Both the position numbers and the translations under genes were made by a program. A stretch of DNA of 64,000 bases from Acidobacteriota bacterium (lineage in GTDB: Bacteria > Acidobacteriota > Terriglobia > Terriglobales > Acidobacteriaceae): NCBI GenBank assembly GCA_019351975.1, contig JABBOG010000003.1:62001-126000 (forward strand), read 5' to 3'. Positions 8,541 through 50,884 of this stretch are shown piece by piece. Below the pieces are notes generated by a model. The model worked only from the letters and a program-made list of their open reading frames with translations, had not been told where the DNA came from and made no database searches. The first letter of the stretch is position 1; every line of letters begins with the position of its first letter.

Positions 8541-11180
8541 CTACTTCACATGAACTGTAGCTTGACCGCCAAGCGAAGGAATCGTCTTCTGCTGGCTGTC
8601 CTTCAGCCCAATCCGCGTTATCGCCAGCGTCGACGTCCCCGGAGCTAACGCCTTGAACGTCAGCGTGCACACCGTTCCCTGGCCAAACACGCCTTTCGTA
8701 CCCGGCGGCCTGGTCGCCACAATCGTCACTGCTCCGTTTCCTTCATCGCGATGCACGAGTGCTACAGCCTGACCATCTCTGCCAAGCAAATCGCCCGAAT
8801 CTACGTTCACCAATTGCAGCACCTTCGGGTCAAACTGCATCTGTATCGGTGCAGCGAACAAGTCCCGCACATCCGATGCATTCACCGATACCTGGAACAC
8901 CGCGCCTGCAGAGACGTTTGTCGTCGCTGGCACCACCGACAGAGAGACTGGCGGTCCGGCCATCGTCCAGTTCTTTGTGATCGGCAGCGAAGCCACAGCA
9001 CCCGGATTCATCGGCTTCGCATCGGCTGCCATCTTCCCAATCATCGCCTGCGCCGCATTTGCCGCAGAAGTCGTCGTCTGTCCCGTCTGAACGCCAGTCG
9101 CTCCAGCGAGCTCCGGATTACCAGCCGCACTTGGCTCCTTGCGAATCAACTGCACAGCCTGGCTTGTACCTGTATAGATAGCCCGTGTATTCTCATCCGT
9201 CAGAATCGACTCACGAACAATGTGCGGAATAATCAGGAATACAATGTCGTCCGTCTGCTGAATCTTATCGGTACTGGCGAAGAAATACTTCAAAATCGGT
9301 AACTCGCCCAGCCCAGGAGTTCCGTTGACATTTTTTGTGTCCTGCACCTGCATGAGACCTGCCAGAAGTGCCGGTTCGCCGTCTTTGAGCTGGATCACCT
9401 GCTCTGCCACACGCTGCGAGATAATCGGCTCCGTCACACCCGAGATCGTCACCGATCCATTCTGTGCTGAAACCTCTACCTTCAGCTTCAGCGATACCTC
9501 GCCGTCAAAATGAACCGTTGGCGTCATGTCGATATTCACACCAACGTCCAAATATGTGAATTGCGTCTGCACGCCCAACGACGCCGTCGTGATGGCCGTT
9601 CCAGCCGAGTACGATCCCGTCGCAACTGGTATCTTCGAACCGATCTTCAGTGTCGCGTGCTGCCCGTCCGTCGCGCGGATACGCGGATTCTGTAGAATCC
9701 TCGTGTCCGTATCCGTCAGCAGCGCATTCACCGTACCGCCACCCAAAGTCACCGCAAAGTTCGTCGCGTTCAGATTTCCCAGCGTGTTCAGCGTGAACCC
9801 GTTCGTCGTCGTCGTGGTCGTCGTACTCGACGTCAGCGTAGAGTTGTTTGCCTCATTTGCGTTGCTATATTGCGGCGTCAAGCCAAAGCTCTGCGGCAGC
9901 GTAATGCCGATATTCCGCTCCAGCTGGCGGCTGACCTCAAGCTCAGCCACATCCACCACAACCTCTGCCTTCGTCCGGTCAAGGTCGTTAATAATCTTCT
10001 CTGCCAAGATCAGCTCATCCGGTGTCCCACGAATCACCAGCGCATTCTGGCTCGCCACCAGATAAATCTTCAATCCCGGATCCAGCAGGTTGCGGATCGC
10101 CACCATAATCTCATTCGCGTCATTCTGCTGTGAAACATTCGTCAGGTAAAACGTCTGCACCGCCAGATCGTCCAGATCTGTGCGCTTGGCGCGTGTATTC
10201 TGCGCCACGAAAATTGTATTCGTCGTCACCGGCTTCCAGAACGTATCACTCAACACCGCCACGATATGCAACGCGTCAGGCAGCGTAACGCTGGTCAAAT
10301 CCACCGGAATTTGCTTTCCCACATACTCCGGATCAAAGATCACGTTCAATCCTGCAGCCTTGCAGATTGCCTGGTAGACCACCTTCGAATCAGCAACCAT
10401 GTGCAGCGTAATCGGATCATCAGACACCGGCTGTAGCGTCACCGGACCAGCCATTGTCGCGATCTCCTTCTGCACCTCCTGCTGATGCGGCGTCTGTTCG
10501 CCGATGGTCGGCACATACGGGCCGGTCGCCGCAGCCTGGCCTCCTCCACCATTCGGTGCGGCTCCGGCCGGCGCTGCACGCTGGTCAGCCTTTTGCAGCT
10601 CCTGCGATGCCACCTCATTGCCGGGATCAATCTGCAGTGCACGCGCAAACTCGTTGATCGCTCCGTCAACATCGCCCGACTGTCGCAGAACCCTGCCCCG
10701 GTCTACATGCATATTGGCAGCCTGGAAGCGGGTATTCTCATATCTCGTCCGGTAACGCAGATCACTCGGCTTCTTCAAATGTGCTTGCCGGAAATCTTCA
10801 AACGCAGCATCATAGTCCTGCCGCGCCTCCGCCTGCTCGCCTTTCTTGTTCCAACCGCTCGCCGACTGACCATAAGCATAGGGTGCAGCCGCACCGCATA
10901 CCATCGTCAATCCAAGCGCCAACCCAAGCTGAAACACCCTACCCTTGGCGAGAACACGCCGCCGACCTTCTCCGCCGAACAACGTACGTTCACCTCGTAT
11001 CGCTACTAACCGATCTCGCATTCTCGCTACCCGTCCCAGCACGCCTTGAACACTCCTGTCGAAGCATCGTCGACCGATAACTCCGTGCCCATCAAAAAGT
11101 GACGCCGCAGAAGCCTCCATTGCTATCTCAAGCGGTCGGCTGGACTCCTTTGATAATACAGCGAACATCTTTGGCTTCAC
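8541..11180 (-). CDS. secretin (GspD/PilQ-like) with N-terminal TPR-like region and C-terminal cohesin-like domain
   Basis: Secretin core VNIDMTPTVHFDGEVSLKLKVEVSAQNG ... QLKDGEPALLAGLMQ ... GLGELPILKYFFAS; C-terminal VSLSVVPATTNVSAGAVFQVSVNASD...; true start may be the Met at 11021. Confidence 0.88.
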   Translation of the reverse strand: MKPKMFAVLSKESSRPLEIAMEASAASLFDGHGVIGRRCFDRSVQGVLGRVARMRDRLVAIRGERTLFGGEGRRRVLAKGRVFQLGLALGLTMVCGAAAPYAYGQSASGWNKKGEQAEARQDYDAAFEDFRQAHLKKPSDLRYRTRYENTRFQAANMHVDRGRVLRQSGDVDGAINEFARALQIDPGNEVASQELQKADQRAAPAGAAPNGGGGQAAATGPYVPTIGEQTPHQQEVQKEIATMAGPVTLQPVSDDPITLHMVADSKVVYQAICKAAGLNVIFDPEYVGKQIPVDLTSVTLPDALHIVAVLSDTFWKPVTTNTIFVAQNTRAKRTDLDDLAVQTFYLTNVSQQNDANEIMVAIRNLLDPGLKIYLVASQNALVIRGTPDELILAEKIINDLDRTKAEVVVDVAELEVSRQLERNIGITLPQSFGLTPQYSNANEANNSTLTSSTTTTTTTNGFTLNTLGNLNATNFAVTLGGGTVNALLTDTDTRILQNPRIRATDGQHATLKIGSKIPVATGSYSAGTAITTASLGVQTQFTYLDVGVNIDMTPTVHFDGEVSLKLKVEVSAQNGSVTISGVTEPIISQRVAEQVIQLKDGEPALLAGLMQVQDTKNVNGTPGLGELPILKYFFASTDKIQQTDDIVFLIIPHIVRESILTDENTRAIYTGTSQAVQLIRKEPSAAGNPELAGATGVQTGQTTTSAANAAQAMIGKMAADAKPMNPGAVASLPITKNWTMAGPPVSLSVVPATTNVSAGAVFQVSVNASDVRDLFAAPIQMQFDPKVLQLVNVDSGDLLGRDGQAVALVHRDEGNGAVTIVATRPPGTKGVFGQGTVCTLTFKALAPGTSTLAITRIGLKDSQQKTIPSLGGQATVHVK

Positions 11181-11414: not shown

Positions 11415-11954
11415 ATGCCCCGTTCACTTTCCAATCCGACAGTATCTGCTCCCCCGAAGCCGTCCGCTAAACCAAAGGACCGCGATCCCGTTGCCTCAGG
11501 TCTCCGCGACGCAGCATTTAACCGCTCCGCAAGCTTTAACTACTTCCTATCCGATCACTTCGAAGCCGGAGTCGCTCTCCGCGGCACCGAAGTCAAATCG
11601 ATCCGTGAAGGCAAAGCCAACCTCAAAGATGCATACGGCCTCCTCAAGGACGGCGAATGCTTCCTCCTCAACGCCCACATTGGACCCTTTTCGCACGGCA
11701 ACATTATGAACCACGACTCACTGCGTACCCGGAAACTACTGCTGCACAAGCGTGAGATTGAAAAGCTCGAAGGCCTTACAAAGCAAAAGGGCTACACCTT
11801 AATTCCCATCAAGCTCTACTTCCGCAACGGCAGAGTCAAATGCGAACTTGCCCTCGCTAAAGGCAAGCAGGATTGGGACAAGCGCGCTACCGAACGTGCC
11901 CGCGAAGGCGACAAAGAAGCGCGCGCCGCTGTTGCGCGCTCCCAACGCCGATAA
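11415..11954 (+). CDS. smpB: SsrA-binding protein SmpB
   Basis: ALRGTEVKSIREGKANLKDAYG ... KGYTLIPIKLYFRNGRVKCELALAKGKQDWDKR. Confidence 0.95.
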   Translation: MPRSLSNPTVSAPPKPSAKPKDRDPVASGLRDAAFNRSASFNYFLSDHFEAGVALRGTEVKSIREGKANLKDAYGLLKDGECFLLNAHIGPFSHGNIMNHDSLRTRKLLLHKREIEKLEGLTKQKGYTLIPIKLYFRNGRVKCELALAKGKQDWDKRATERAREGDKEARAAVARSQRR

Positions 11955-11976: not shown

Positions 11977-14652
11977 CTACTGCGCGTCCGGTGGCGAAGG
12001 CATCGAGCGGATGTACGCCACAAGTTCTTTTCTCGCATTTGAATTCATGTTCGTTGGAGGCATGTTCCCGTTCTTCATCTGCGTGCTGTGATGCTGTAGC
12101 AAAGTATCAAGCACAGACGCGGGCAACATAGAAGCTGTGCCAGCCAAACCAGGAGCAGCCACAGTTCCGTGCAGCCCATCAACTCCATGGCACGTCTCAC
12201 AACGGTTGTGCTGAAAGATAACCCTTCCCTGCTGCGCCTCTGCGCTCAATGGCATCTGCTTTACGGGTTTGGCGGCCGCTGTGGTGCTCGCCCGATCTGC
12301 AGCTACACCAGGTGCAACCCCTTTTGAAGCTACATCGGACGAAGAATGCGGGCTCGGACTTGGAGCCGCACCGACATTCGCGGGTGCCTTGCCCAGCCCT
12401 GAAAGATACGCCACCAGATCCTTCATCTGAGTGTCATCCACAGTTACAGCCGGCATACCTCCAGCACGCATTGCCTTCTTTGGATGGTGCAACAGAAATA
12501 TAAGCTGCGAAGGAGGATACTTTCCGCCAATATCAATCAATGAAGGGGCGAAATGCGTGCCCTGAGCTTCTTTGCCATGGCAAGCGGCGCATCCATTCGC
12601 CACAAAGACCGCGCGGCCCGCACTCGCTGGCGAACTCGCTTCAGCAACTTGCGTTGTCGGCTGCCCTTTCTGGCTAGCTACCGGCGCACTCCCGGCCGTC
12701 GCGGGTGCTGAACTCCCCCCGGATTTCTCAGCGATACCCTGCGATGCTGGGGCCGCACTTGTCGACTTCGCAGCGTCCTGCGGAGCGATCCCCTGCACGT
12801 CTTCTTTCTTCGTAGGCGCGAGTGACCTCAGATAAGCGACCACTGCGCTGACATCACCAACTGACGCCACGAGCGGAGGCATACCGCCCGCCTTCATCGC
12901 CGCGTCCGGAGCCTGGATCAGTCTAGCCAGCTGCGCGTCCGACCGCTTTGCAATCAGCACACGCAACGCCGGTATCCTCCCCATCCCCGCACCCGCCTCG
13001 CCATGGCATCTCGCACAACTCTGCGCCTCGAAGATCTTCCCGCCGGCAACCGCAGCGGACGATGATGCCGTACCAACTGCTCCGGTGCCGGGCGGTATCC
13101 CAGGCCCGCCTCGCACTACAGCAGATTTTTCCACGGCAGGCGCTTGGGCCTCCGCAAGTGGTGCAGGAACAGCCTCCGCCGCAGGCGTTCCCAAGCTTCC
13201 CAGGTAGCTGAACAACGCCGTTACATCAGGTGTCGAAAGCGTGAAAGAAGGCATGTGTCCTGCAAGCATCTTGGCGTTCGGATGATGCAGCAGCTCGGCG
13301 ATTTGCGGTAGCGCATATTTACGCGTAATCCCGACAAGACTCGGAGCGTTCGCCGTCCCCGTGCCTTCTGCACCATGGCATCCAGAGCATCCATTTGAAC
13401 TGAACACAGCCTTCCCTTTAGCCACAAGCGGGTCTGCCGGAGCTGTAGAAACAGGCAATCCGCTCGCGGATTCCATGCGCGGAACGAACGGTGCTTTCGT
13501 ATATTCCTCAGCCTGCTTCTCTTGAAACGCAAGTTGAATCGCAACACTGTGGTCGTGCAAATCATCCAGATGGCTTTTGAATCCAAGGAACACCATGCCC
13601 ACCAGCACAATACATACAGCAAGCATCGGAATGGGCCGACGCCATGGGCGACGCTCCAGGCTGCGGTCCAGAAAAGGTATTAGGAAGAATACGAGCGCTA
13701 AAATGCCAGGAATCACCACGACTGCAAACACTTCCATCCTGCTCGACCAGAACTTCAACCACTCGAACATCGGCAGGTAGTACCACTCAGGCCGTGGGAC
13801 AAACTTCGTATTCGAAGGATCAGCAATCGGTCCGAGCTGTACAGGATGGAAATAAGCCAAAAATCCAAGGCCCACCATGATCAACAGTGCAAAAGCCATA
13901 TCCATTACAACCTGCCGAGGATAAAAACTTTCAGGAGGAAGCTTTGGATCGACTGGATCTTCATTGATCGGGCCCGCCGCACCAGCCTTGCGAAACAGCG
14001 CAACATGCAGACCTATAAACAAGAAAATCATGCCAGGAATCAAAAACACATGCGCAAAATAAAAGCGTGACAGCGTCAGCGTTCCAAGCGTGTCACCGCC
14101 GCGCAGCATGTTTGTGAGCCACTGCCCAATGAACGGTACCTCACCAACAATGTTTGTCCCGACGGCCGTTGCGAAGTACGCACTCTGGTCCCACGGAAGC
14201 AAGTACCCTGTAAATCCCATACCGAGCACAAGAAATGAAAGCAGCGCACCCGAAATCCAGAGAAGCTCACGCCGACCTTTGAACGATCCATAGATGAACG
14301 TCTGCAGAAAGTGCAGCAGCAGCACAATGATCATCGCGCTACTACCGTAGTAATGAAGGCTGCGCAAAAATTGTCCCGCAGCTACCTGCTTCGTAATGTA
14401 TGCAACGCTCGTATGCGCCGACTCAGCCGACGGAACGTAATAGAGCGCCAGACACAATCCGGTAATGACCTGCGAGATGAAGATAAACAGCAGACCCGAA
14501 CCGAATACATACGCCAGCCGTGCTCCTCCAGGAACAGGCTCATCCAGCGAAGCGTGCATCACGCTATTGATTCCGGTGCGCTCGTTGAACCAGTTGTAAA
14601 ACCGGTTAGTGCTCTTCTTCTGACTCGCGCGGTCCTCTACTTCATCGTGCAT
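11977..14652 (-). CDS. cytochrome b (bc-complex type) fused to four C-terminal c-type cytochrome domains
   Basis: Cytochrome b core with GYLLPWDQSAYFATAVGTNIVGEVPFIG; four CxxCH motifs CSGCH, CARCH, CAACH, CETCH (encoded near 13375-13389, 13003-13017, 12577-12591, 12187-12201). Confidence 0.92.
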   Translation of the reverse strand: MHDEVEDRASQKKSTNRFYNWFNERTGINSVMHASLDEPVPGGARLAYVFGSGLLFIFISQVITGLCLALYYVPSAESAHTSVAYITKQVAAGQFLRSLHYYGSSAMIIVLLLHFLQTFIYGSFKGRRELLWISGALLSFLVLGMGFTGYLLPWDQSAYFATAVGTNIVGEVPFIGQWLTNMLRGGDTLGTLTLSRFYFAHVFLIPGMIFLFIGLHVALFRKAGAAGPINEDPVDPKLPPESFYPRQVVMDMAFALLIMVGLGFLAYFHPVQLGPIADPSNTKFVPRPEWYYLPMFEWLKFWSSRMEVFAVVVIPGILALVFFLIPFLDRSLERRPWRRPIPMLAVCIVLVGMVFLGFKSHLDDLHDHSVAIQLAFQEKQAEEYTKAPFVPRMESASGLPVSTAPADPLVAKGKAVFSSNGCSGCHGAEGTGTANAPSLVGITRKYALPQIAELLHHPNAKMLAGHMPSFTLSTPDVTALFSYLGSLGTPAAEAVPAPLAEAQAPAVEKSAVVRGGPGIPPGTGAVGTASSSAAVAGGKIFEAQSCARCHGEAGAGMGRIPALRVLIAKRSDAQLARLIQAPDAAMKAGGMPPLVASVGDVSAVVAYLRSLAPTKKEDVQGIAPQDAAKSTSAAPASQGIAEKSGGSSAPATAGSAPVASQKGQPTTQVAEASSPASAGRAVFVANGCAACHGKEAQGTHFAPSLIDIGGKYPPSQLIFLLHHPKKAMRAGGMPAVTVDDTQMKDLVAYLSGLGKAPANVGAAPSPSPHSSSDVASKGVAPGVAADRASTTAAAKPVKQMPLSAEAQQGRVIFQHNRCETCHGVDGLHGTVAAPGLAGTASMLPASVLDTLLQHHSTQMKNGNMPPTNMNSNARKELVAYIRSMPSPPDAQ

Positions 14653-14660
14653 GGTGCCAC

Positions 14661-15239
14661 CTAACTCAACACTTCACGGTTGGGTACGTTTTCACGAAAA
14701 TATTCAAACTTCACAAGAAGATTGCCGTCTTCAGCTTTGTTAGGCAGCGGGTCCATGCCGCGCGGCGAAGGTCCTGAGACGTGCTTCCCATCACGCTCAA
14801 ACACGCTCCCGTGGCATGGGCAGTAGAAATCATCATGCCCTTCTCGCCACGCTATCGTGCATCCCATATGCGGACAGATCGAAGACAATACCTTCATATC
14901 TCCTTCAGCGCTCTTCGTTACATACACAGTCTGCGAAGAATCCACCTCTCTCCATCCATCGATCTGTTTCAGGTCCAACGGCGCCATCATCGGCTTGGAA
15001 AGGTCGGAAAAGTGCTCCATCTTTCCAATCAGCGACCATACGGTATTACTTGACTTCGCGTATAAGGGATACAACACATACCGCAGAACCGGCACGGCGA
15101 GAATCGCGCCCATGCCTGCCGACCCAATCAACATAAGACTTCCAAAAAACGATCGTCTGCTGATGACGATGTTCTCCTTAGGATCTACTTCCAACCGCTC
15201 ACCGTGTTCTTCCATGCATCCTCCTAAAACATGATCCAA
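14661..15239 (-). CDS. Rieske iron-sulfur protein of a bc-type complex
   Basis: CPHMGCTIAWREGHDDFYCPCHGSVFERDGKHVSGPSPRGMDPLP; N-terminal TM. Confidence 0.93.
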   Translation of the reverse strand: MDHVLGGCMEEHGERLEVDPKENIVISRRSFFGSLMLIGSAGMGAILAVPVLRYVLYPLYAKSSNTVWSLIGKMEHFSDLSKPMMAPLDLKQIDGWREVDSSQTVYVTKSAEGDMKVLSSICPHMGCTIAWREGHDDFYCPCHGSVFERDGKHVSGPSPRGMDPLPNKAEDGNLLVKFEYFRENVPNREVLS

Positions 15240-16546
15240 AGTGCCATATAGACGCTATTGTTATCTGCGGCAGTGCGCCCAGCGCCGTCGTAGTTCGTGC
15301 CCGCGCCGTTGAACTTCGTGTATCCCGTGTAGTTCACGTTGATGTCGATGTTCTGCACCGGCCAGTAAGCAGCCTGCAAGATATAGCCACTCGTGTTAGG
15401 ACTGCCGCTGAAACTTCCCGTCAGCGGTGCCGCCGCATAGAGCAGCGGGTCGGTCGTGCCCGTCGTCGTGAAGAGCGCTCCCGTTGCTGTATATTTTGTA
15501 GTCCAGTGATATGTACTATCCAGCTTGAATGTGTTCAGCGTATGGTGAACCGCATCCGCTCCGCCCGCTGCAAATGTAGCGTTCAGATTCGAGTTCTCGT
15601 GAATCCATGTACCGTGTGCATCCAGCAGGTTCGCTCCAAACGGCCGCTCGTATTGAAAATCAAGCGCTGGATCAATATATCGATCGAGCGCGCCTGTAAT
15701 GGCTCCCGGGTGAGAGTTCACAGCGATTCCATACGTGCCCACCATCAAGTAGTTCGCTCCCCAATTCTGTTGCCACGCAGCTCTCCAGTACGGCGCCGCC
15801 GCGCTGATGTTATACGGAAACCCCGCGCCGTTGACCGGCACCGGCCCTGCTTCGTGCTCGCTCCGGTAGGCGGTAATCTCGGTGTAAAGATGGTTGTTCC
15901 ACATGCTATAAACGCCCGCTCCCGCCACATCCTGTGCGAGGACACCATCGATAAGGGGCGTAGCGATGGACCCAACCGTTGCCTCCGACGAGATATACGG
16001 AAATCCCCACGCTGGAGTGCTGTTCCATAAGTCCTGAACCGTAGGGTTGTTATTGAGAGTCACGCCGTAATCCAGCTTCTTTCCACCCAGCGTCGTCTCG
16101 TTTGCGTACCTGAAATCGCTGTTATCCATCGCGAACACATCACTCGAATGGCTATAGGTAACCTGCGCAAGAGCACCAAAATGCGACGCGAATCCTCCCG
16201 CAAGGAACAAGCTCAATTGTTGAGGAAAACCAACTGCGCTGTTCTGCGTCGCAGGCGCAACATTCTGAAATGCGGTATTTGAAAGAAGCACCATAAATGA
16301 CAACGGAATATTCTTCGTAAGATCAAGTCCAGAGGTGACGCCAACTCTGTCTGTTGGCGTCAGCGGTGGCGCCAGCACATACCCTCGCAACTTAAAGTCA
16401 CGCCCAAACGCAGTCAGCTCCGGCGCATTGCTATGACACACATTGCACGAAAGCCCCGTTTGGCGCGCAAAACTCGGAACCGCTTGCGCATACTGAAAGC
16501 TCATCAATACCGCTAGTCCCGTCGCAATCCTTATAGTTCTTCTCAT
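15224..16546 (-). CDS. monoheme outer-membrane porin-cytochrome, Cyc2-like (putative)
   Basis: Signal peptide, then PSFARQTGLSCNVCHSNAPELTAFGRDFKLRGY (CNVCH at 16433-16447), then about 400 aa with no further CxxCH, beta-barrel-like, terminal Phe (YMALWIMF). Start at internal Met. Confidence 0.65.
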   Translation of the reverse strand: MRRTIRIATGLAVLMSFQYAQAVPSFARQTGLSCNVCHSNAPELTAFGRDFKLRGYVLAPPLTPTDRVGVTSGLDLTKNIPLSFMVLLSNTAFQNVAPATQNSAVGFPQQLSLFLAGGFASHFGALAQVTYSHSSDVFAMDNSDFRYANETTLGGKKLDYGVTLNNNPTVQDLWNSTPAWGFPYISSEATVGSIATPLIDGVLAQDVAGAGVYSMWNNHLYTEITAYRSEHEAGPVPVNGAGFPYNISAAAPYWRAAWQQNWGANYLMVGTYGIAVNSHPGAITGALDRYIDPALDFQYERPFGANLLDAHGTWIHENSNLNATFAAGGADAVHHTLNTFKLDSTYHWTTKYTATGALFTTTGTTDPLLYAAAPLTGSFSGSPNTSGYILQAAYWPVQNIDINVNYTGYTKFNGAGTNYDGAGRTAADNNSVYMALWIMF

Positions 16547-16939
16547 GACGCACCTTTGTTTCACTACTGCATTCCGTACGAACAGGTTCAACCTCACATA
16601 TGTCGTAAACCCAGTGAAGCAACAAAGAGGGTCAGAAGTATGTACCCGATTGCTCACTCGGCGTTTCTAAACTTCAAAAGCTCATAGCAAGCGCGTAATT
16701 CACCGACACCGCATAACCGCTGCACTATGCCATCAACCGATCCCCTCGCATTGCATTTCTGATCTCACATAACTGAATCTGTGTGACACACTACAGTCCA
16801 GCCTTCGCAAAACCACGTCTCAACTGCTTGCACATTTGAACGACCCGCAACTGCAACGGGCCCGCAGACATCGCAGCTATCACTAGATACCTAGTTGAAG
16901 CAGCTAGCATTACTTTCACATCTTCTCCAGTCATACCGA

Positions 16940-16955
16940 TGTGACGGACATCACA
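16940..16955. promoter_or_regulatory. Crp/Fnr-family palindromic operator candidate
   Basis: TGTGA-CGGACA-TCACA, exact match to TGTGA-N6-TCACA, in the divergent intergenic region facing a Crp/Fnr gene. Confidence 0.6.
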
Positions 16956-17174
16956 CCATATCTGAGATAATTCGAAAATTGAGTAGCAAATCACAGAAAG
17001 AATGAGCTTGCGAAAATAGGGACGCCCCAAACCTCCATGTCGATGCTTTCCGCAGTCCGCACAATGACGCGTTTCTTTACGAACTACCCATACGAATGTG
17101 CAAAATCAAATGCACTTCACCGCCATAGCTAAGGATTCAGAAGCGCACGCCGTAAGGAAACTCTAGGATCTCCG

Positions 17175-17888
17175 ATGTCGAATCATGCTCGTGCACGCTC
17201 CATCAACGACTGCAAAAGCTGTGATCTCCGCTCGCTGAGAATGTTTTGCAATTTGAATGACGCTGCATTTGAAAACTTTCAGTCCATCGGAGTCGCGACC
17301 ACCGCCTCAAAAGGAACAAGGCTCTTCTCTGAAGACCAATATTGTGGCAGTGTTTTCGTTGTCTGCACCGGTCAGGTCAAGCTCTTCTGCACATCAAAAG
17401 AGGGCAAGAGTTTAATTCTAAAAATCGCCCTACCGGGCGATGTGCTCGGCCTTGGAGCCATGCTCGCAGAGAAGAAATATGAAGTAACAGCTGAAGTGGT
17501 CGAACTCGCGCAACTCAAGCGCATACGCCGCGACGAATTTCTAACCTTCCTCAAAGAGCACGGTGAAGGAAGTCTTCACGCCGCCCAGTCACTCTCCGAA
17601 GAATATCAAGCCGCCTTCTTCGACGTGCGCCGCCTCGCGCTCTCCGTCTCCGCAGCCGCGCGTCTCGCCAGTCTGCTGCTCGAATGGGCGCGTCAGGAAT
17701 CCTGCGGCAAGGCGGAACTCCGCTTCACTATGGCCCTCACCCATGAAGAGCTCGCCAGCATGGTCGGCAGCTCCCGAGAAACAATTACTCGCACAATAAG
17801 TCGGTTCAAACGCGACAAGCTTATCAAGGTGACCGGGTCTTCCATCCTGATCCTCAATCCTGACAAACTCGACGAGTTTTCAGTGTGA
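17175..17888 (+). CDS. Crp/Fnr family transcriptional regulator with N-terminal Cys cluster
   Basis: cNMP-like N domain; HTH MALTHEELASMVGSSRETITRTISRFKRDKLI; N-terminal CKSCDLRSLRMFC. Confidence 0.9.
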   Translation: MSNHARARSINDCKSCDLRSLRMFCNLNDAAFENFQSIGVATTASKGTRLFSEDQYCGSVFVVCTGQVKLFCTSKEGKSLILKIALPGDVLGLGAMLAEKKYEVTAEVVELAQLKRIRRDEFLTFLKEHGEGSLHAAQSLSEEYQAAFFDVRRLALSVSAAARLASLLLEWARQESCGKAELRFTMALTHEELASMVGSSRETITRTISRFKRDKLIKVTGSSILILNPDKLDEFSV

Positions 17889-17950
17889 TAACTACCACAC
17901 GAAACCGCTCCGGAGCCAGCCTGATTCATCCGAACCGCCACCAAACAGCT

Positions 17951-21017: not shown

Positions 21018-22169
21018 TTACACCGCGATCGTGAAGCTGTTTTCACTGCGGGTCACTTCCCGATACAGCGTGTCCCGCTCAAACGGAACGCGCCCAGCCT
21101 CCGTAATCAGCCGCACCAGGTCATGCCTGCGCAACCCCTGCGGCGTGTTCGCTCCCGCATCGTGGTATATCTTCTCCTCCACCACCGTTCCGTCGATATC
21201 ATCAGCACCAAACCGCAGCGAGATCTGCGCCATCTTCGGCGTCACCATCTGCCAGTAGCTCTTAATGTGCGAAAAGTTATCCAACATCAACCGGCTCACC
21301 GCAATCTGACGAATATCCGTCAGCCCACTCGACTTCGGCAGATGCCCCAGCGCCGTGTTGTCCGGATGAAAGCTCAGCGGGATGAACGTCTGAAATCCAC
21401 CCGTATCATCCTGCACCTCGCGAAGCCGCATCAGGTGGTCCACGCGGTCCTCATCGTTCTCGATATGGCCGTACAGCATCGTCGCATTCGACCGCAGCCC
21501 AGCCTTGTGCACCAGCCGCGCCGTCTCCAGCCACTCGCCGCCATCGATCTTGTGGTCGCAGATAATATGCCGCACGCGGTCCGCAAAGATCTCCGCTCCG
21601 CCGCCCGGACACGAATCCACCCCCGCGGCCCTCATCTGCTCGATCATCTCCGCAATCGAAATCTTCCCGCGCTTGGCCAGGAACGCAATCTCCACCATCG
21701 TGAACGCCTTCACATGCACCTGCGGATAGCGTTGCTTCAAACCCCTCACCAGATCCATGAAGTACGACACCGGCAGATCAGGATGCAGCCCACCCACAAT
21801 GTGGAACTCCGTCACAGCCTCCGTCAGCCCCTGCCCCGCAGTCTCCCATGCCTCTTCAAGAGCCATCGTGTACGTGTCGGCCTCACCCTTTTTCCGCCCA
21901 AACGCGCACAGTCTGCACGACGCAACACAGACGTTCGTAGGATTGATATGCCGGTTCACATTGAAGTACGCCAGATCCCCATGCATCCGCTCGCGCACCA
22001 GGTTCGCCATCCAGCCCACTGCCAGGATGTCGCCGCTGCGGTACAGCGCGACGCCATCATCGAAGTTCAGGCGCTCTCCCCGTTCCACTTTTCTGGCAAC
22101 GGGTTCGAGCGCAGGATCATCCGTCTGAAAACAGTGCCGAGGGCGCGAAGAAGGAACCGAAGTTTCCAT
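21018..22169 (-). CDS. mqnE: aminofutalosine synthase MqnE (radical SAM)
   Basis: Radical SAM C-x3-C-x2-C in NPTNVCVASCRLCAFGRKKGEADTYTM; VTEFHIVGGLHPDLP; DSCPGGGAEIF. Confidence 0.88.
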   Translation of the reverse strand: METSVPSSRPRHCFQTDDPALEPVARKVERGERLNFDDGVALYRSGDILAVGWMANLVRERMHGDLAYFNVNRHINPTNVCVASCRLCAFGRKKGEADTYTMALEEAWETAGQGLTEAVTEFHIVGGLHPDLPVSYFMDLVRGLKQRYPQVHVKAFTMVEIAFLAKRGKISIAEMIEQMRAAGVDSCPGGGAEIFADRVRHIICDHKIDGGEWLETARLVHKAGLRSNATMLYGHIENDEDRVDHLMRLREVQDDTGGFQTFIPLSFHPDNTALGHLPKSSGLTDIRQIAVSRLMLDNFSHIKSYWQMVTPKMAQISLRFGADDIDGTVVEEKIYHDAGANTPQGLRRHDLVRLITEAGRVPFERDTLYREVTRSENSFTIAV

Positions 22170-45260: not shown

Positions 45261-47202
45261 GCAGCTCGCATCCGGTTGGCGAGGTATCTGCCTCGTCGCG
45301 ATCACCTACGTCTACTTCCTCATCTTCGCGCAGTTCGCCTTCCTCCATCGCCTCGCTACCCTCGGCATCGCGGACACGCACCTCAAGCTGGTCATGGCCT
45401 CCATGGCCATCGGCGGCATCCTCTTCAGCCTCATCGCCGCACGCCTTCAAACCGCCACCCCACCGCTCAGCCCCTCCGCTCGCCTGCGCGCCGCCCTCAT
45501 CCTCAGCGCCGCCGCCGCGCTTCTCACCCTGCTTCCACTCAATCTCTTCGCCAGCCTCGCCGTCGCCTTTCTCATCGGCACCGGCCTCGGCCTGCTCACC
45601 GTAACCCTCGTCACCCACCTGCCAACGTGGCTCGGCCCAACCGACCCAATCCTCCAGGTCGGTCTCGGCACAGGCCTCGGCTACTTCATCTGCAACTTCC
45701 CTCCGATCTTCGCAGCGTCGCCGCAAACGCAATCGTTCATCGCCGCAACCCTCTGCCTGCTCGGCCTCTTCGCTGTCGGCATCGCCCGTCCCATGCAGCC
45801 TGCAGCGCAGCCTCAGCCCGCACTGCCCCCACCCGCCCGCACTCTTTCCTTCCCCATCGTCCTCGCCTGCTTCACCGCTCTTGTCTGGCTTGACTCCGCC
45901 GCCTTCTTCATCATCCAGAGCACCCCCGCCCTCAAAGCTGGCACATGGGTAGGTTCCGCGCATCTCTGGCTGAACGGCAGCCTTCACCTCGCCGCAGCCA
46001 TCGCCAGCGCGCTCCTGCTCCGGCGTCGCGGCATCGGCGTCGTTCTCAGCACCGCCTTCCTCGCTCTCGCCATCGCATGCCTTCTCCTGCTCGACCCCAA
46101 CCGCGCTCTGCTCGCCTCTCTCTTCTATCCCGTCGGCGTCTCGCTCTACTCCGTCGCCCTCGTCGCCTATCCCGCGCTCCTCTTCGGCCCCGCCACCCTT
46201 TCCAACCGAGCCCATCGCGCCGGTTGGATCTACGCCATCGCTGGCTGGATCGGCTCCGCCATGGGCATCGGCATGGCGCAGAATCTTCGCCACGTTCCCG
46301 TCGCCTTTGTCGCCATCGCGGGCACCGTCATCCTCGGCCCACAAATCTCTCACCTCACCATCAGGCGCTCCCGCGAACTCACCGCCGTCGCCGCCATCCT
46401 CACCCTTTCACTCCTCGTCGATCTCGCACTCCGAGCCCATCACACCCACACACCTCCACTCTCCGCCATCGAGCGCGGCCGTCGGGTCTACATCGCCGAA
46501 GGCTGCATCAACTGCCACTCCCAATACATCCGCCCCAACAGCACCGACGTCCTCATGTGGGGTCCCGCGCAGACCATCGAAGAGCTGCGCCAACAGCATC
46601 CCCCGCTCATCGGCAACCGCCGTCAGGGACCGGATCTCTCCGAGGTCGGCGGCCGTCGCTCCCCCCTCTGGCTGCGCGCGCACTTCTACAAGCCCCGCCA
46701 GGTCAGCCACGCCTCCTTCATGCCCTCCTACAAATACCTCTTCCAGAACTCCAACCGCGGCAACGACCTCATCGCCTACCTCAACAGCCTCAAAAGCCCC
46801 ACCTACCCGCAGCACATTCAGGCCGAACAGGCATGGCATCCCTCCGCTGCGGCCGTGGCCTCTGCCAATCCCACCACCGGCGCGCATCTCTTCGCCAACT
46901 ACTGCGCCACCTGCCACCAATCCAACGGACTCACCCGCCAAACCTGGCACAACGACTTCAAACATCTTCCGCCCACCCTTTCCACCGGCTCCTGGTCACG
47001 CCTGCAGCCCTCCGATACTCCCGCGCAGCGCCAACACATCCTCGCTCGCATCATCAAATTCGGCATCCCCGGAACAGACATGCCGGGTCACGAATACCTC
47101 CCCGACAACGACGTCGCCGACATCGCTCTCTGGCTAAGCCAATCCATCGCGCAGCCACATCAATCTGTAACCAACCACACCACCACTGGAGAACTTCAAT
47201 GA
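45247..47202 (+). CDS. MFS-like membrane domain fused to CcoO-like and second c-type cytochrome domain
   Basis: N-terminal about 12 TM; then RGRRVYIAEGCINCHSQYIRPNSTDVLMWGPAQ...GPDLSEVGGRRSPLWLRAHFYKPRQVSHASFMPSYKYLF; second haem site ANYCATCHQSNG. Confidence 0.88.
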   Translation: MSKLKQLASGWRGICLVAITYVYFLIFAQFAFLHRLATLGIADTHLKLVMASMAIGGILFSLIAARLQTATPPLSPSARLRAALILSAAAALLTLLPLNLFASLAVAFLIGTGLGLLTVTLVTHLPTWLGPTDPILQVGLGTGLGYFICNFPPIFAASPQTQSFIAATLCLLGLFAVGIARPMQPAAQPQPALPPPARTLSFPIVLACFTALVWLDSAAFFIIQSTPALKAGTWVGSAHLWLNGSLHLAAAIASALLLRRRGIGVVLSTAFLALAIACLLLLDPNRALLASLFYPVGVSLYSVALVAYPALLFGPATLSNRAHRAGWIYAIAGWIGSAMGIGMAQNLRHVPVAFVAIAGTVILGPQISHLTIRRSRELTAVAAILTLSLLVDLALRAHHTHTPPLSAIERGRRVYIAEGCINCHSQYIRPNSTDVLMWGPAQTIEELRQQHPPLIGNRRQGPDLSEVGGRRSPLWLRAHFYKPRQVSHASFMPSYKYLFQNSNRGNDLIAYLNSLKSPTYPQHIQAEQAWHPSAAAVASANPTTGAHLFANYCATCHQSNGLTRQTWHNDFKHLPPTLSTGSWSRLQPSDTPAQRQHILARIIKFGIPGTDMPGHEYLPDNDVADIALWLSQSIAQPHQSVTNHTTTGELQ

Positions 47203-47771
47203 AAGCCTTCGCCTCCTCGCTCATCCTCGCCCTCCCCTTCGCCCTCATCGGCTCCGCTCTAGCGCAGCACAGCACCTTCACCGTCAATCCCGGCGCTAGC
47301 AAAGTTAACATGACCCTCAAAACCAACCACGACAACGTTCTCGGCAGCTTCCACATCCAATCCGGCGCGATCCAATACGACAACAGCGCTCACACCATGG
47401 CAGGCTCCGTCGTCGTCGCCGCAGGCAGTGGCGACACCGGCAACCAGAGCCGCGATAAAAAGATGGACAAAGACATCCTCGAAACCCAGAAATACACCAC
47501 CGTCACCTTCGCCCCCAGGAGCTACACAGGAAACATCGCCCCCTCCGGCGACTCCACCATTCAGGTCACTGGCGTCATCACCCTCCTCGGCAACCCACAC
47601 GACATCACCATCCCCATGCAGATCCACATCGACGCCAACAACGCCACCGCCAAAGCAAGCTTCCCCATCCCCTACGTCCAGTGGGGCCTCAAAGACCCAA
47701 GTTTCTTCGTCCTCAAAGCCCAGAAAGAAGTCGACATCGACCTCAACCTCGCCGGCACCATCGCTCACTAA
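47199..47771 (+). CDS. YceI family periplasmic protein
   Basis: Signal peptide MKAFASSLILALPFALIGSALAQ; STFTVNPGASKVNMTLKTNHDNVLGSF ... VTGVITLLGNPHDITIPM; ATGA overlap with previous gene. Confidence 0.88.
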   Translation: MKAFASSLILALPFALIGSALAQHSTFTVNPGASKVNMTLKTNHDNVLGSFHIQSGAIQYDNSAHTMAGSVVVAAGSGDTGNQSRDKKMDKDILETQKYTTVTFAPRSYTGNIAPSGDSTIQVTGVITLLGNPHDITIPMQIHIDANNATAKASFPIPYVQWGLKDPSFFVLKAQKEVDIDLNLAGTIAH

Positions 47772-47809
47772 CCGCGCGCTTCCAAACAACGCATCCAACA
47801 TCCCTGTTT

Positions 47810-47849
47810 GAGCAGAACTCTTCCCTCCAACCGCATCAGAGTTCTGCTC
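47810..47849 (+). other. inverted repeat / hairpin downstream of YceI gene
   Basis: GAGCAGAACTC ... GAGTTCTGCTC, 11-bp perfect stem, flanked by CCCTG / CAGGG. Confidence 0.65.
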
Positions 47850-47947
47850 CCTCAGGGGCACACCCAGCTTCCGCATCTCGCGTACAGCAAATCCCATCAC
47901 GGCCAGCACTCTGATCGAAAGAGGCTTCCGCACCGGAGCTCATCACC

Positions 47948-50884
47948 TTGCCTCAGACTTTTCTTAAGCCCTCTCTCACATCCGCGATCGCATCGGTCGT
48001 CTTCGGCCTGAACCTCGCCGCTGCTGCCTTGGCACAAATGCCACTTCAGCACCGCATCCTCCCTCGCTCGTTCGCCCTCGGCGCTACAGTGTCCATCAGC
48101 CTGATTACCGGCACCATCTCCGACATCAGCGGTGCCCCCATCCCCTCCGCGACCATCACGCTCTCCAACGCCGACGGCATCCTCCGCAGCGCCACCACAT
48201 CCCCCACCGGCACCTTCACCCTCCTCGACATACCAACCGGTGTCTACCTCCTCAAAGCCGCCGCCGCAGGCTTCTCCCCCTACGCCAATCCCAACACCAT
48301 CGTCGCCGTCGGACGCAATCTCCAGCTCTCCATTGTCATGCGTCCCGCCGGTGCCAAAGAAGCCCTCACCGTCACCGCGCAAGGCACCGGTCTCGACACC
48401 TCACAGACCTCCTCCGTCACCAACATCGACAAAGACCGCATCGAAGAATTACCCATCGAAAGCCGCAACTACCTCGTCTTCTCTCTTCTCGCACCGCAGG
48501 TCGCACAAGCCAACCCCGCCATCGCGCAGCAGACGCTCACACAAGGCACCGGCGGCTTCAGCTTCGGCGGCCTCCGCGCCAACAGCAACGCCCTCTACAT
48601 CGACGGCGTCGATGACGATGACGAGTACACCGGATCCAGCCGCACCGAACTCTCCCCCGAAGCCATCAGCGACTTCCAGATCGTCAACCACGGCTTCCAG
48701 GCCCAGTCCGGCGGCGCTGCCGGCGGCTCCATCGACGTCCAAACCCGCGCTGGCATGCGCCTCCAGCACGGCGACGCCTTCATCTTCGTCCAGGACGGCG
48801 CACTCAACGCCGACCCACCCCTCGAAATCCTCCCCTACAAGCCCGACGAGATCCGCCTCCGCACCGGCCTCTCCACCGGTGGCCCTCTCTTCACCAACAA
48901 GACCTTCTACTACATCGCCGCCGAGCAGGAGTACGCCCGCGGCGAAGACGCCAACGATCTCTCCGCCGCCACCATCGCGCAGATCAACCGCTCCATCGCC
49001 ACCATCGGCCCGCTCCCATCTCTCTCCCTCCAGCCCGGCTTCTTCCCCACCACCGAGCAGGAGACCGAATTCTCCGCCCGGCTCGACCATACCTTCGACG
49101 CCAACAACACCCTCATGCTGCGCTACGCTCTCACCAACAACCGCGACGTCAACGACGCCTTCAACATCGACGACCTCTCCGATCGCAGCGCGCGCGGCTC
49201 CGCATTCCACGACGACAACAGCCTCAACGGCACCCTTAGCTCCATCCTCTCCTCCGGCCTCGTCAACAGCCTCAGCTTCGAACTCTCCCAGCGACGCGCC
49301 GTCGACCGCACCCTCTCCACCACCGCTCCAGGCGTCCTCATCCCCGGCATCGCGCAGTTCGGCACCCCCTTCGCAGGCAACGACCGCCGCTTCGAAACCC
49401 ACGCCGAGTTCAGCGAAAGCATCGTCCAGCAACGCGGTAAGCACCTCTTCCAGGCCGGCATCAGCCTGGACCACATCGCCCTTCGCTCCCATGACCTCGA
49501 CGGCTTTCGCGGCCTCTACATCTTCCGCGACCTCACCGCGCTCTCCACCGGCGACGCGGACTTCTACACCCAGTCCTTCGGCAATCCCGACACCAACCTC
49601 GCCGAAATTCGCAGCGCAGCCTACGCGCAGGATCACTGGACACCCTCCTCCAGACTCGCCATCGACTACGGCATCCGCTACGACGACAACCATCTCCCCG
49701 GCCCACTCCCCCAGCACCCCGTCAACATCAGCCCACGCCTCGGCCTCGCATACACCCCGAACTCCTCCTGGGTCATCCGCACCGGCTTCGGCATGTTCTA
49801 CGATCGCTACGATCTCTCCACCATCAACCGCATCCTCGAGTTCAACGGCACCTCCGCCCTCTCGCAGACCGAAGAGGGTCCCGCCGCCGCAGCGCTCTAT
49901 CGGTCCGGAGCGCAGTTCACCTCGCCGCAGCTCCACATCGCACCCAATATCTGGACCGCCCAGCACCACCTCGCCAACCCCTACAGCGAGGTCGCCTCTC
50001 TAGGCGTCGAGCGCTCCCTCCCGCAAGGCTTCACCGCCAAAGCCGAGTACCAGTTTGTTCACGGCGTCCGGCTCGGTCGCACCATCAACGCAAACCTCCT
50101 CCCGCCCGTCATCCTCACACCCCAGAACGCCACCGCTCTTGACATCGATTCCCCCACACCGCAGCAACTCAACCGGCTCATCTTCACCCCCGAACGCATC
50201 AATCCCACCTACAACGCCATCAATCAATTCCAAACCGAAGCCAACTCCAACTACAACGGCACCACCCTCACACTGAACCGCCAGTTCGACGAGCAGTTCG
50301 AGCTCATGGCCGGTTATACCTTCTCCAAAACCATCGACGACGCTTCCTACGACTCCGAGCAGCCGCAAAACCCCTACGACCTCGCCCGCGAGCGCGCCCT
50401 GTCTCTGCAGGACCAGCGAAATCGCTTCATCTTAAGCGGGCTCTGGGTTCTCGGTCCAGACCTCGATGACCCACAGGACCAGGCGCAGGGCCCATCCACC
50501 AGCCCCATCATGCGCGCCCTCACCGGCCTCGAGTTCGCCCCCATCTTCGCTGCAACCTCTGGCTTCCGCGCCAACCCAGTCACCGGCCAGGACACCAACC
50601 ACGAGAACATCTACCCCTTCGCCGCGCGCCCCCTCGGCTACGGTCGCAACGCACTGCAAACCTCACCCAACATCGACCTCGACCTTCGCGTCCTCAAGAT
50701 GGTGCCCCTCTGGTGCGGCCACCTCGACATCGTCGCCGAGTCCTTCAACCTCCTCAATCACACCAACGTCTCTCTCCTCAACACCGCATACGGCACCGGC
50801 ACCTCCCCACTCCCCAGCTTCGGCGCTCCCATCGCCGCCTCCACCGCACGCCGCATCCAGTTCTCCCTCGACTTCGAATATTGA
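47948..50884 (+). CDS. TonB-dependent receptor-like (Oar-like) outer-membrane protein with carboxypeptidase-regulatory-like domain
   Basis: GTISDISGAPIPSATITLSNADG...; plug-like RANSNALYIDGVDDDDEYTGSSRTELSPEAISDFQIV; barrel with C-terminal SLDFEY. Confidence 0.88.
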   Translation: MPQTFLKPSLTSAIASVVFGLNLAAAALAQMPLQHRILPRSFALGATVSISLITGTISDISGAPIPSATITLSNADGILRSATTSPTGTFTLLDIPTGVYLLKAAAAGFSPYANPNTIVAVGRNLQLSIVMRPAGAKEALTVTAQGTGLDTSQTSSVTNIDKDRIEELPIESRNYLVFSLLAPQVAQANPAIAQQTLTQGTGGFSFGGLRANSNALYIDGVDDDDEYTGSSRTELSPEAISDFQIVNHGFQAQSGGAAGGSIDVQTRAGMRLQHGDAFIFVQDGALNADPPLEILPYKPDEIRLRTGLSTGGPLFTNKTFYYIAAEQEYARGEDANDLSAATIAQINRSIATIGPLPSLSLQPGFFPTTEQETEFSARLDHTFDANNTLMLRYALTNNRDVNDAFNIDDLSDRSARGSAFHDDNSLNGTLSSILSSGLVNSLSFELSQRRAVDRTLSTTAPGVLIPGIAQFGTPFAGNDRRFETHAEFSESIVQQRGKHLFQAGISLDHIALRSHDLDGFRGLYIFRDLTALSTGDADFYTQSFGNPDTNLAEIRSAAYAQDHWTPSSRLAIDYGIRYDDNHLPGPLPQHPVNISPRLGLAYTPNSSWVIRTGFGMFYDRYDLSTINRILEFNGTSALSQTEEGPAAAALYRSGAQFTSPQLHIAPNIWTAQHHLANPYSEVASLGVERSLPQGFTAKAEYQFVHGVRLGRTINANLLPPVILTPQNATALDIDSPTPQQLNRLIFTPERINPTYNAINQFQTEANSNYNGTTLTLNRQFDEQFELMAGYTFSKTIDDASYDSEQPQNPYDLARERALSLQDQRNRFILSGLWVLGPDLDDPQDQAQGPSTSPIMRALTGLEFAPIFAATSGFRANPVTGQDTNHENIYPFAARPLGYGRNALQTSPNIDLDLRVLKMVPLWCGHLDIVAESFNLLNHTNVSLLNTAYGTGTSPLPSFGAPIAASTARRIQFSLDFEY

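Follow-up and report, generated by a model that had tools for sequence, protein, structure and literature searches.

A Cyc2-like porin-cytochrome encoded beside a Rieske/four-haem cytochrome b complex: a candidate electron conduit in Acidobacteriota

Proteins of the Cyc2 family are recognised by the motif AXPXFAR[Q/K][T/Y], one CXXCH, a PXL tripeptide, a length of no less than 365 residues and a porin part of 16 strands similar to OprO/OprP (Keffer et al., PMC8406198), and a similarity network ties Leptospirillum Cyc572 to acidobacterial homologues (PMC10654088). In Acidithiobacillus ferrooxidans, Cyc2/Cyc2B has been proposed to reduce Fe(III) with electrons from a bc1 complex (PMC8790237, PMC10715153). 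Here, we describe a locus of an Acidobacteriota bacterium, located in a stretch of 64,000 nucleotides of contig JABBOG010000003.1 (the window, in whose numbering all coordinates without a locus label are given), in which a Cyc2-like gene is followed by genes for a Rieske protein and a cytochrome b with four c-haem domains. With a probability slightly better than even, the operon may encode a dedicated conduit by which electrons pass between the cell exterior and the (mena)quinone pool, with outward flow somewhat favoured. This reading rests on the 8-bp operon layout, its conservation in a clade of homologues (A4), the recurrent pairing of the Cyc2-like family with different quinol oxidoreductases and a second Cyc2-like family occupying the same slot, as well as on the predicted barrel and porin fold, the invariant ligands, the disordered Ala/Pro/Ser-rich linkers found clade-wide and the enrichment of a CRP-type operator.

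The three genes lie on the minus strand as open frames at 11977-16546, in the order Cyc2-like, Rieske and cytochrome b, and the gaps between the first and second and between the second and third are 8 bp each when the Rieske gene starts at ATG 15215, a start preferred over the less likely TTG 15239. A gene for a Crp/Fnr-family regulator is encoded divergently on the plus strand at 17175-17888 (PF13545, PF00027). Open frames and Pfam matches place all four genes where a preliminary description of the sequence had put them, and the layout is not due to chance, since homologues in dozens of genomes share it.

The Cyc2-like gene (15224-16546, minus strand; ATG at 16546, stop at 15224) encodes a fused monohaem cytochrome-porin of 440 amino acids, which carries every sequence feature of the published Cyc2 screen. 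Its haem segment, AVPSFARQTGLSCNVCHSNAPEL, contains both the Cyc2 motif (A22-V-P-S-F-A-R-Q-T30), upstream of the haem c motif C34NVCH38 (CNVCH, residues 34-38; 16433-16447, minus strand), and PXL (P42-E-L44), four residues past the CXXCH. The two cysteines and the histidine of the haem motif are invariant in alignments A1 and A2, and P42 and L44 are likewise invariant in the alignment. Exactly one CXXCH is found in 136/136 retrieved acidobacterial homologues, of which 131 end in Phe, as does the window protein; homologue lengths range from 439 to 472 amino acids, and the 440 of the window protein exceed the screen minimum of 365. The N-terminus, judged by eye, is hydrophobic in a way typical of a signal peptide. 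An AlphaFold model built on 70 homologues, which contains no haem, shows 16 strands after the N-terminal haem segment (pLDDT 85.4, pTM 0.82), predicting an outer-membrane barrel at residues 82-440 (15227-16303, minus strand). Foldseek comparison with the PDB returned many porins, among them OprP (2o4v, E 1.3e-7), with TM-scores of ~0.3-0.6 that indicate a match at the level of fold class. Pfam and NCBIfam profiles gave no significant match for this protein, and PDB sequence and profile searches gave nothing credible, leaving fold comparison as the only means of placing it. The tree being built from homologues of Acidobacteriota and plasmids only, the assignment to Cyc2 is made by motif screen and predicted fold. 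From sequence and model together, the protein is predicted to be a haem-bearing outer-membrane pore of the Cyc2 kind known from iron oxidisers, with the haem at its N-terminal end. The fusion of a monohaem cytochrome to a barrel, as first proposed from the letters alone, is borne out by the motif, the single CXXCH, the terminal Phe, the length and the 16 predicted strands.

The Rieske [2Fe-2S] subunit (14661-15215, minus strand) has a twin-arginine-like N-terminus and carries CPHMGC...CPCHGS (PF00355, 6e-11), an intact form of the CXHXGC/CXCHXS motif present in 56/58 homologues, and its nearest matches are b6f Rieske proteins. The 891-residue cytochrome b (11977-14652, minus strand) joins a b6-type cytochrome b (PF00033, 2e-46) and a subunit-IV-like part (PF00032; in Pfam terms Cytochrome_B plus Cytochrom_B_C) to four Cytochrom_C stretches. 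Its membrane core, residues 1-385 (13498-14652, minus strand), is closest to cyanobacterial b6 (1vf5, E 2e-47), and an alignment of 27 sequences shows no variation in the b-haem ligands H100/H114/H201/H216, the PEWY motif (P288EWY291) or any of the four CXXCH. No separate gene for cytochrome f or c1 is present in the operon, the c domains being fused to cytochrome b. By its sequence, this is a b6f-type complex in which the b-haem, Qo-site and [2Fe-2S] ligands are all intact.

In the tail of the cytochrome b, four class-I-like c domains are strung together by flexible linkers (11980-13440, minus strand); their haem motifs begin at residues 422, 546, 688 and 818 (13375-13389, 13003-13017, 12577-12591 and 12187-12201, minus strand). 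The four c haems of the preliminary description are matched by four CXXCH and four Cytochrom_C stretches. The domains can be aligned with one another, and a Met-Pro candidate for the axial ligand is present in every one. The linkers are mostly 30-60 residues long and consist to 60-90% of A/P/S/T/G/Q in complete clade members; in the AlphaFold model, which has an overall pLDDT of 57 and a poor membrane part, they score 24-33 and the c domains mostly 60-89. Three relatives (L126, L128, L145) carry five haems on cytochrome b, while a paralogue in the genome of the window and the A1 relatives carry only one, and the four-haem tail therefore looks like an expansion.

Cyc2-like loci with a Rieske gene and a multi-haem cytochrome b form clade A4 (39 non-redundant rows; SH-aLRT 99). 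The preliminary description had expected these genes to be conserved together, and they adjoin the Cyc2-like gene in every A4 member whose contig extends far enough: the three exceptions without Rieske and cytochrome b (L038, L047, L116) stop at a contig edge, as does the lone cytochrome b in G099. In L126, both genes lie upstream rather than downstream of the Cyc2-like gene. An isolate, Acidipila rosea DSM 103428 (L102), contains the full locus, and the matches listed from named genomes are from Acidobacteriota except one in a metagenome-assembled genome labelled Gammaproteobacteria (L168). The homologue in the latter has 49% identity and branches outside the acidobacterial group. The Cyc2-like family is sparse across the phylum, with full-length members in 8/297 genomes.

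Beyond A4, pairing with a quinol oxidoreductase recurs. Counted over all loci, such a complex is encoded within 8 kb of the Cyc2-like gene in 71/106 non-redundant loci, and in 41/63 of those with at least 5 kb available on both sides, against a chance expectation of ~2% (about five such loci per 3.9 Mb). Other acidobacterial Cyc2-like genes neighbour a monohaem cytochrome b (8), a Rieske/b/octahaem operon (18), alternative complex III (ACIII; 7) or another cytochrome b (1). The octahaem operon, found in distant acidobacterial families (L079:535-9337; relatives L081, L082, L164, L176, L202-L204), encodes, besides the Cyc2-like protein, a cupredoxin, a GltD-like NAD(P)/4Fe-4S flavoprotein, Rieske, an ExtP-like cytochrome b, a subunit IV/ExtQ-like protein, an octahaem and a monohaem cytochrome. 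Its porin slot, ahead of the cupredoxin and Rieske/b/octahaem genes, can be held by a second Cyc2-like family, F20, of the AIPAFARKY...CSTCH type (L093:2893-4365, L094:2560-4065, L095:3684-5270; also L201), for which no plasmid homologues were found. Elsewhere, the Cyc2-like gene stands directly upstream of an ACIII operon encoding the pentahaem ActA, ActB and ActC (L054:3204-9565; L058, L132, L133, L137). On proteobacterial plasmids, the family of the window protein adjoins soluble c-type cytochromes.

These neighbourhoods bear on whether the genes share more than their regulation. The Rieske/cytochrome b complex could work in normal aerobic respiration, with an unrelated task for the Cyc2-like protein, e.g., metal detoxification or redox sensing; the interaction between the two is putative, and just a cupredoxin is found near the Cyc2-like gene in 20 of the 106 loci and nothing recognised in 15, some of them at contig ends. 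Yet, the pairing is invariant in A4 and recurs with other quinol complexes, and family searches of the genome found an ACIII-caa3 cluster, a bc-aa3 cluster and more oxidases, all away from the locus, which makes the Rieske/cytochrome b complex of the locus an extra one. We consider mere co-regulation improbable, the least probable of the alternatives weighed here. That the locus might encode the cell's only bc complex is ruled out by the same two clusters.

The region between the divergent genes contains a perfect CRP-type palindrome, TGTGA-N6-TCACA, at 16940-16955, the only perfect site in the 64-kb window. In 15/36 A4 loci, the 500 bp ahead of the Cyc2-like gene contain a perfect site. This amounts to 16 sites (two in L128) in 18.5 kb of such sequence, compared with 5 in 600 kb elsewhere, with a p of ~4e-27 that is nominal, the related loci not being independent. 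The recognition helix of the regulator, SRETITR, keeps the residues that contact TGTGA in E. coli CRP, and the CX2CX8C arrangement of its N-terminus is suggestive of redox sensing. The FNR box TTGATN4ATCAA showed no excess over chance, and a sigma-70 scan found no promoter-like site. A further palindrome of the CRP type, with one mismatch, is found at 17884-17899, at the end of the regulator gene. The preliminary description had given the operon its own Crp/Fnr regulator; what holds across the clade is the operator, strongly conserved upstream, whereas a Crp/Fnr gene no more than 5 kb away is found in just one further A4 locus (L110) and, over all 106 loci, in seven. The adjacent gene was therefore rejected as a conserved part of the module.

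In the conduit as we propose it, menaquinol would be oxidised at the Qo site of the Rieske/cytochrome b complex, and the Rieske protein would pass electrons to the first c domain. The tethered c domains would then cross the periplasm, replacing soluble Cyc1 or rusticyanin, until the last docks on the Cyc2-type haem, which may react with a small soluble partner entering the pore, most simply iron. Transcription would be controlled by the Crp/Fnr-family regulator via the TGTGA-N6-TCACA operator. In the outward mode, the path would provide energy-conserving Fe(III) reduction at low oxygen, and it would be chemically reversible. The fully specified version, in which the flexible four-haem tail docks on the monohaem porin-cytochrome and, with no soluble carrier involved, acidophilic Acidobacteriota respire Fe(III), or Fe reversibly, in a way coupled to the Q cycle, is tentative and clearly less probable than the conduit as such.

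By the established potentials, electrons run downhill when menaquinol reduces a Cyc2-type haem and uphill in the opposite direction. A potential of +208 mV has been determined for Cyc2PV-1 (PMC8406198). Reduction of Fe(III) when oxygen is limiting is known from several Acidobacteriia (PMC10715153), in some of them without a known pathway, and peat genomes have been surveyed that lack known metal-reduction genes (PMC6018796). The quinone is probably menaquinone, judging from general knowledge of the phylum and a nearby radical-SAM gene of the CofH/MqnC group (21018-22169), probably of the futalosine route. RuBisCO was not found by family search in the genome itself (95% complete) and is absent from 11/14 A4 genomes, and the operon contains no oxidase gene. 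Given the probable menaquinone, the missing RuBisCO, the lack of an operon oxidase and the known acidobacterial Fe(III) reduction, a reversible conduit with net outward flow seems slightly likelier than one with net inward flow.

Several points weigh against the proposed conduit and its direction. The contact between tail and barrel is pure inference, the haem seat inside the pore is putative in a model that places no haem, the conduit function is read from sequence and predicted structure, and the use of menaquinone is probable, from a nearby gene and the phylum at large. RuBisCO-family matches occur in three A4 genomes (G004, G079, G095), so that CO2 fixation, and with it inward flow, is conceivable in some hosts; the match in G004, a genome of the same genus, lies at G004:C92:24258-25118. 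Finally, the demonstrated activity of Cyc2 proteins, where tested biochemically, is Fe(II) oxidation (PMC8406198), which favours the opposite direction: the Cyc2-like protein would oxidise Fe(II) outside the cell and feed, through the c-haem tail, the separate aa3/caa3 oxidases, with part of the electrons driven uphill via Rieske/cytochrome b to quinones. Reverse flow through bc1 is the accepted model for A. ferrooxidans (PMC8790237), oxidases are present in the genome, and the sister octahaem operon includes an NAD(P)-linked flavoprotein. However, the operon has neither an oxidase nor a soluble carrier, 11 of the 14 hosts lack RuBisCO and thus have no obvious need for uphill NADH production, and it is the proteobacterial Cyc2-like genes that adjoin soluble c cytochromes instead. 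We regard inward flow as a serious alternative that falls short of even probability. The extracellular electron-uptake module first suggested keeps its conduit architecture, while uptake becomes one of two directions, the outward one being downhill and at least as likely.

Iron as the partner of the conduit may also be questioned, as nothing in the sequence identifies it, and a part for Cyc2 has been suggested in Candidatus Manganitrophus, which oxidises Mn(II) (PMC9040806). Yet, only small dissolved partners are predicted to reach a single haem in a narrow pore, and the one demonstrated is iron (PMC8406198), making Mn, humic substances, an electrode or another cell unlikely partners.

For iron electron exchange by acidophilic Acidobacteriota, the locus offers a specific candidate, and one carried by a strain that can be cultured, Acidipila rosea. 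The presence of Cyc2, the usual marker of Fe(II) oxidation, beside quinol-oxidising complexes in probable heterotrophs calls for caution in naming every Cyc2 an iron oxidase, and a tailed cytochrome b docking on a porin-cytochrome would, if true, be a new architecture for crossing the periplasm. Neither Cyc2 in an operon with Rieske/cytochrome b nor a four-haem-tailed cytochrome b was found described in open-access full text, the search leaving aside subscription papers and preprints; the operon and the haem-string cytochrome b appear undescribed in that literature, and the Cyc2 protein family is already known. Elsewhere in the window, a secretin with a C-terminal cohesin-like domain (8541-11180) lies near smpB (11415-11954), and a YceI-domain protein adjoins a large carboxypeptidase-regulatory/outer-membrane-barrel protein (45945-50884).

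Compared with known systems, the sister octahaem operon matches the ExtP, ExtQ and ExtS profiles of the selenite/tellurite (Ext) operon below cut-offs only, and membership is not claimed. MtrCAB, MtoAB and PioAB resemble the proposed conduit in linking an outer-membrane electron path to the quinone pool, yet they place decahaem cytochromes in 26-strand porins, and a conduit of the MtrCAB type was rejected because the window protein has one haem and 16 strands. Cyc2 genes of Acetobacteraceae also adjoin c-type cytochromes, but acidophilic taxa there have a degenerate bc1 complex (PMC10715153), while the Rieske/cytochrome b complex of the window is intact. The locus shares with b6f and other Rieske-cytochrome b complexes the b6-like core, the PEWY-bearing subunit-IV-like part and the b6f-like Rieske protein, and differs from b6f in tethering four c domains (five in the three relatives) to cytochrome b in place of a separate cytochrome f/c1. 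Cyc2/Cyt572 of Acidithiobacillus, Mariprofundus and Leptospirillum agree with the window protein in N-terminal monohaem motif, PXL, length and predicted OprP-like 16-strand porin; unlike them, the window gene shares its operon with a Rieske/cytochrome b complex. The rus and pet operons of A. ferrooxidans likewise link Cyc2 functionally to a bc complex via periplasmic carriers, but there cyc2 and petABC lie in separate operons and the carriers are soluble, whereas in the window locus the genes are adjacent and the haems tethered.

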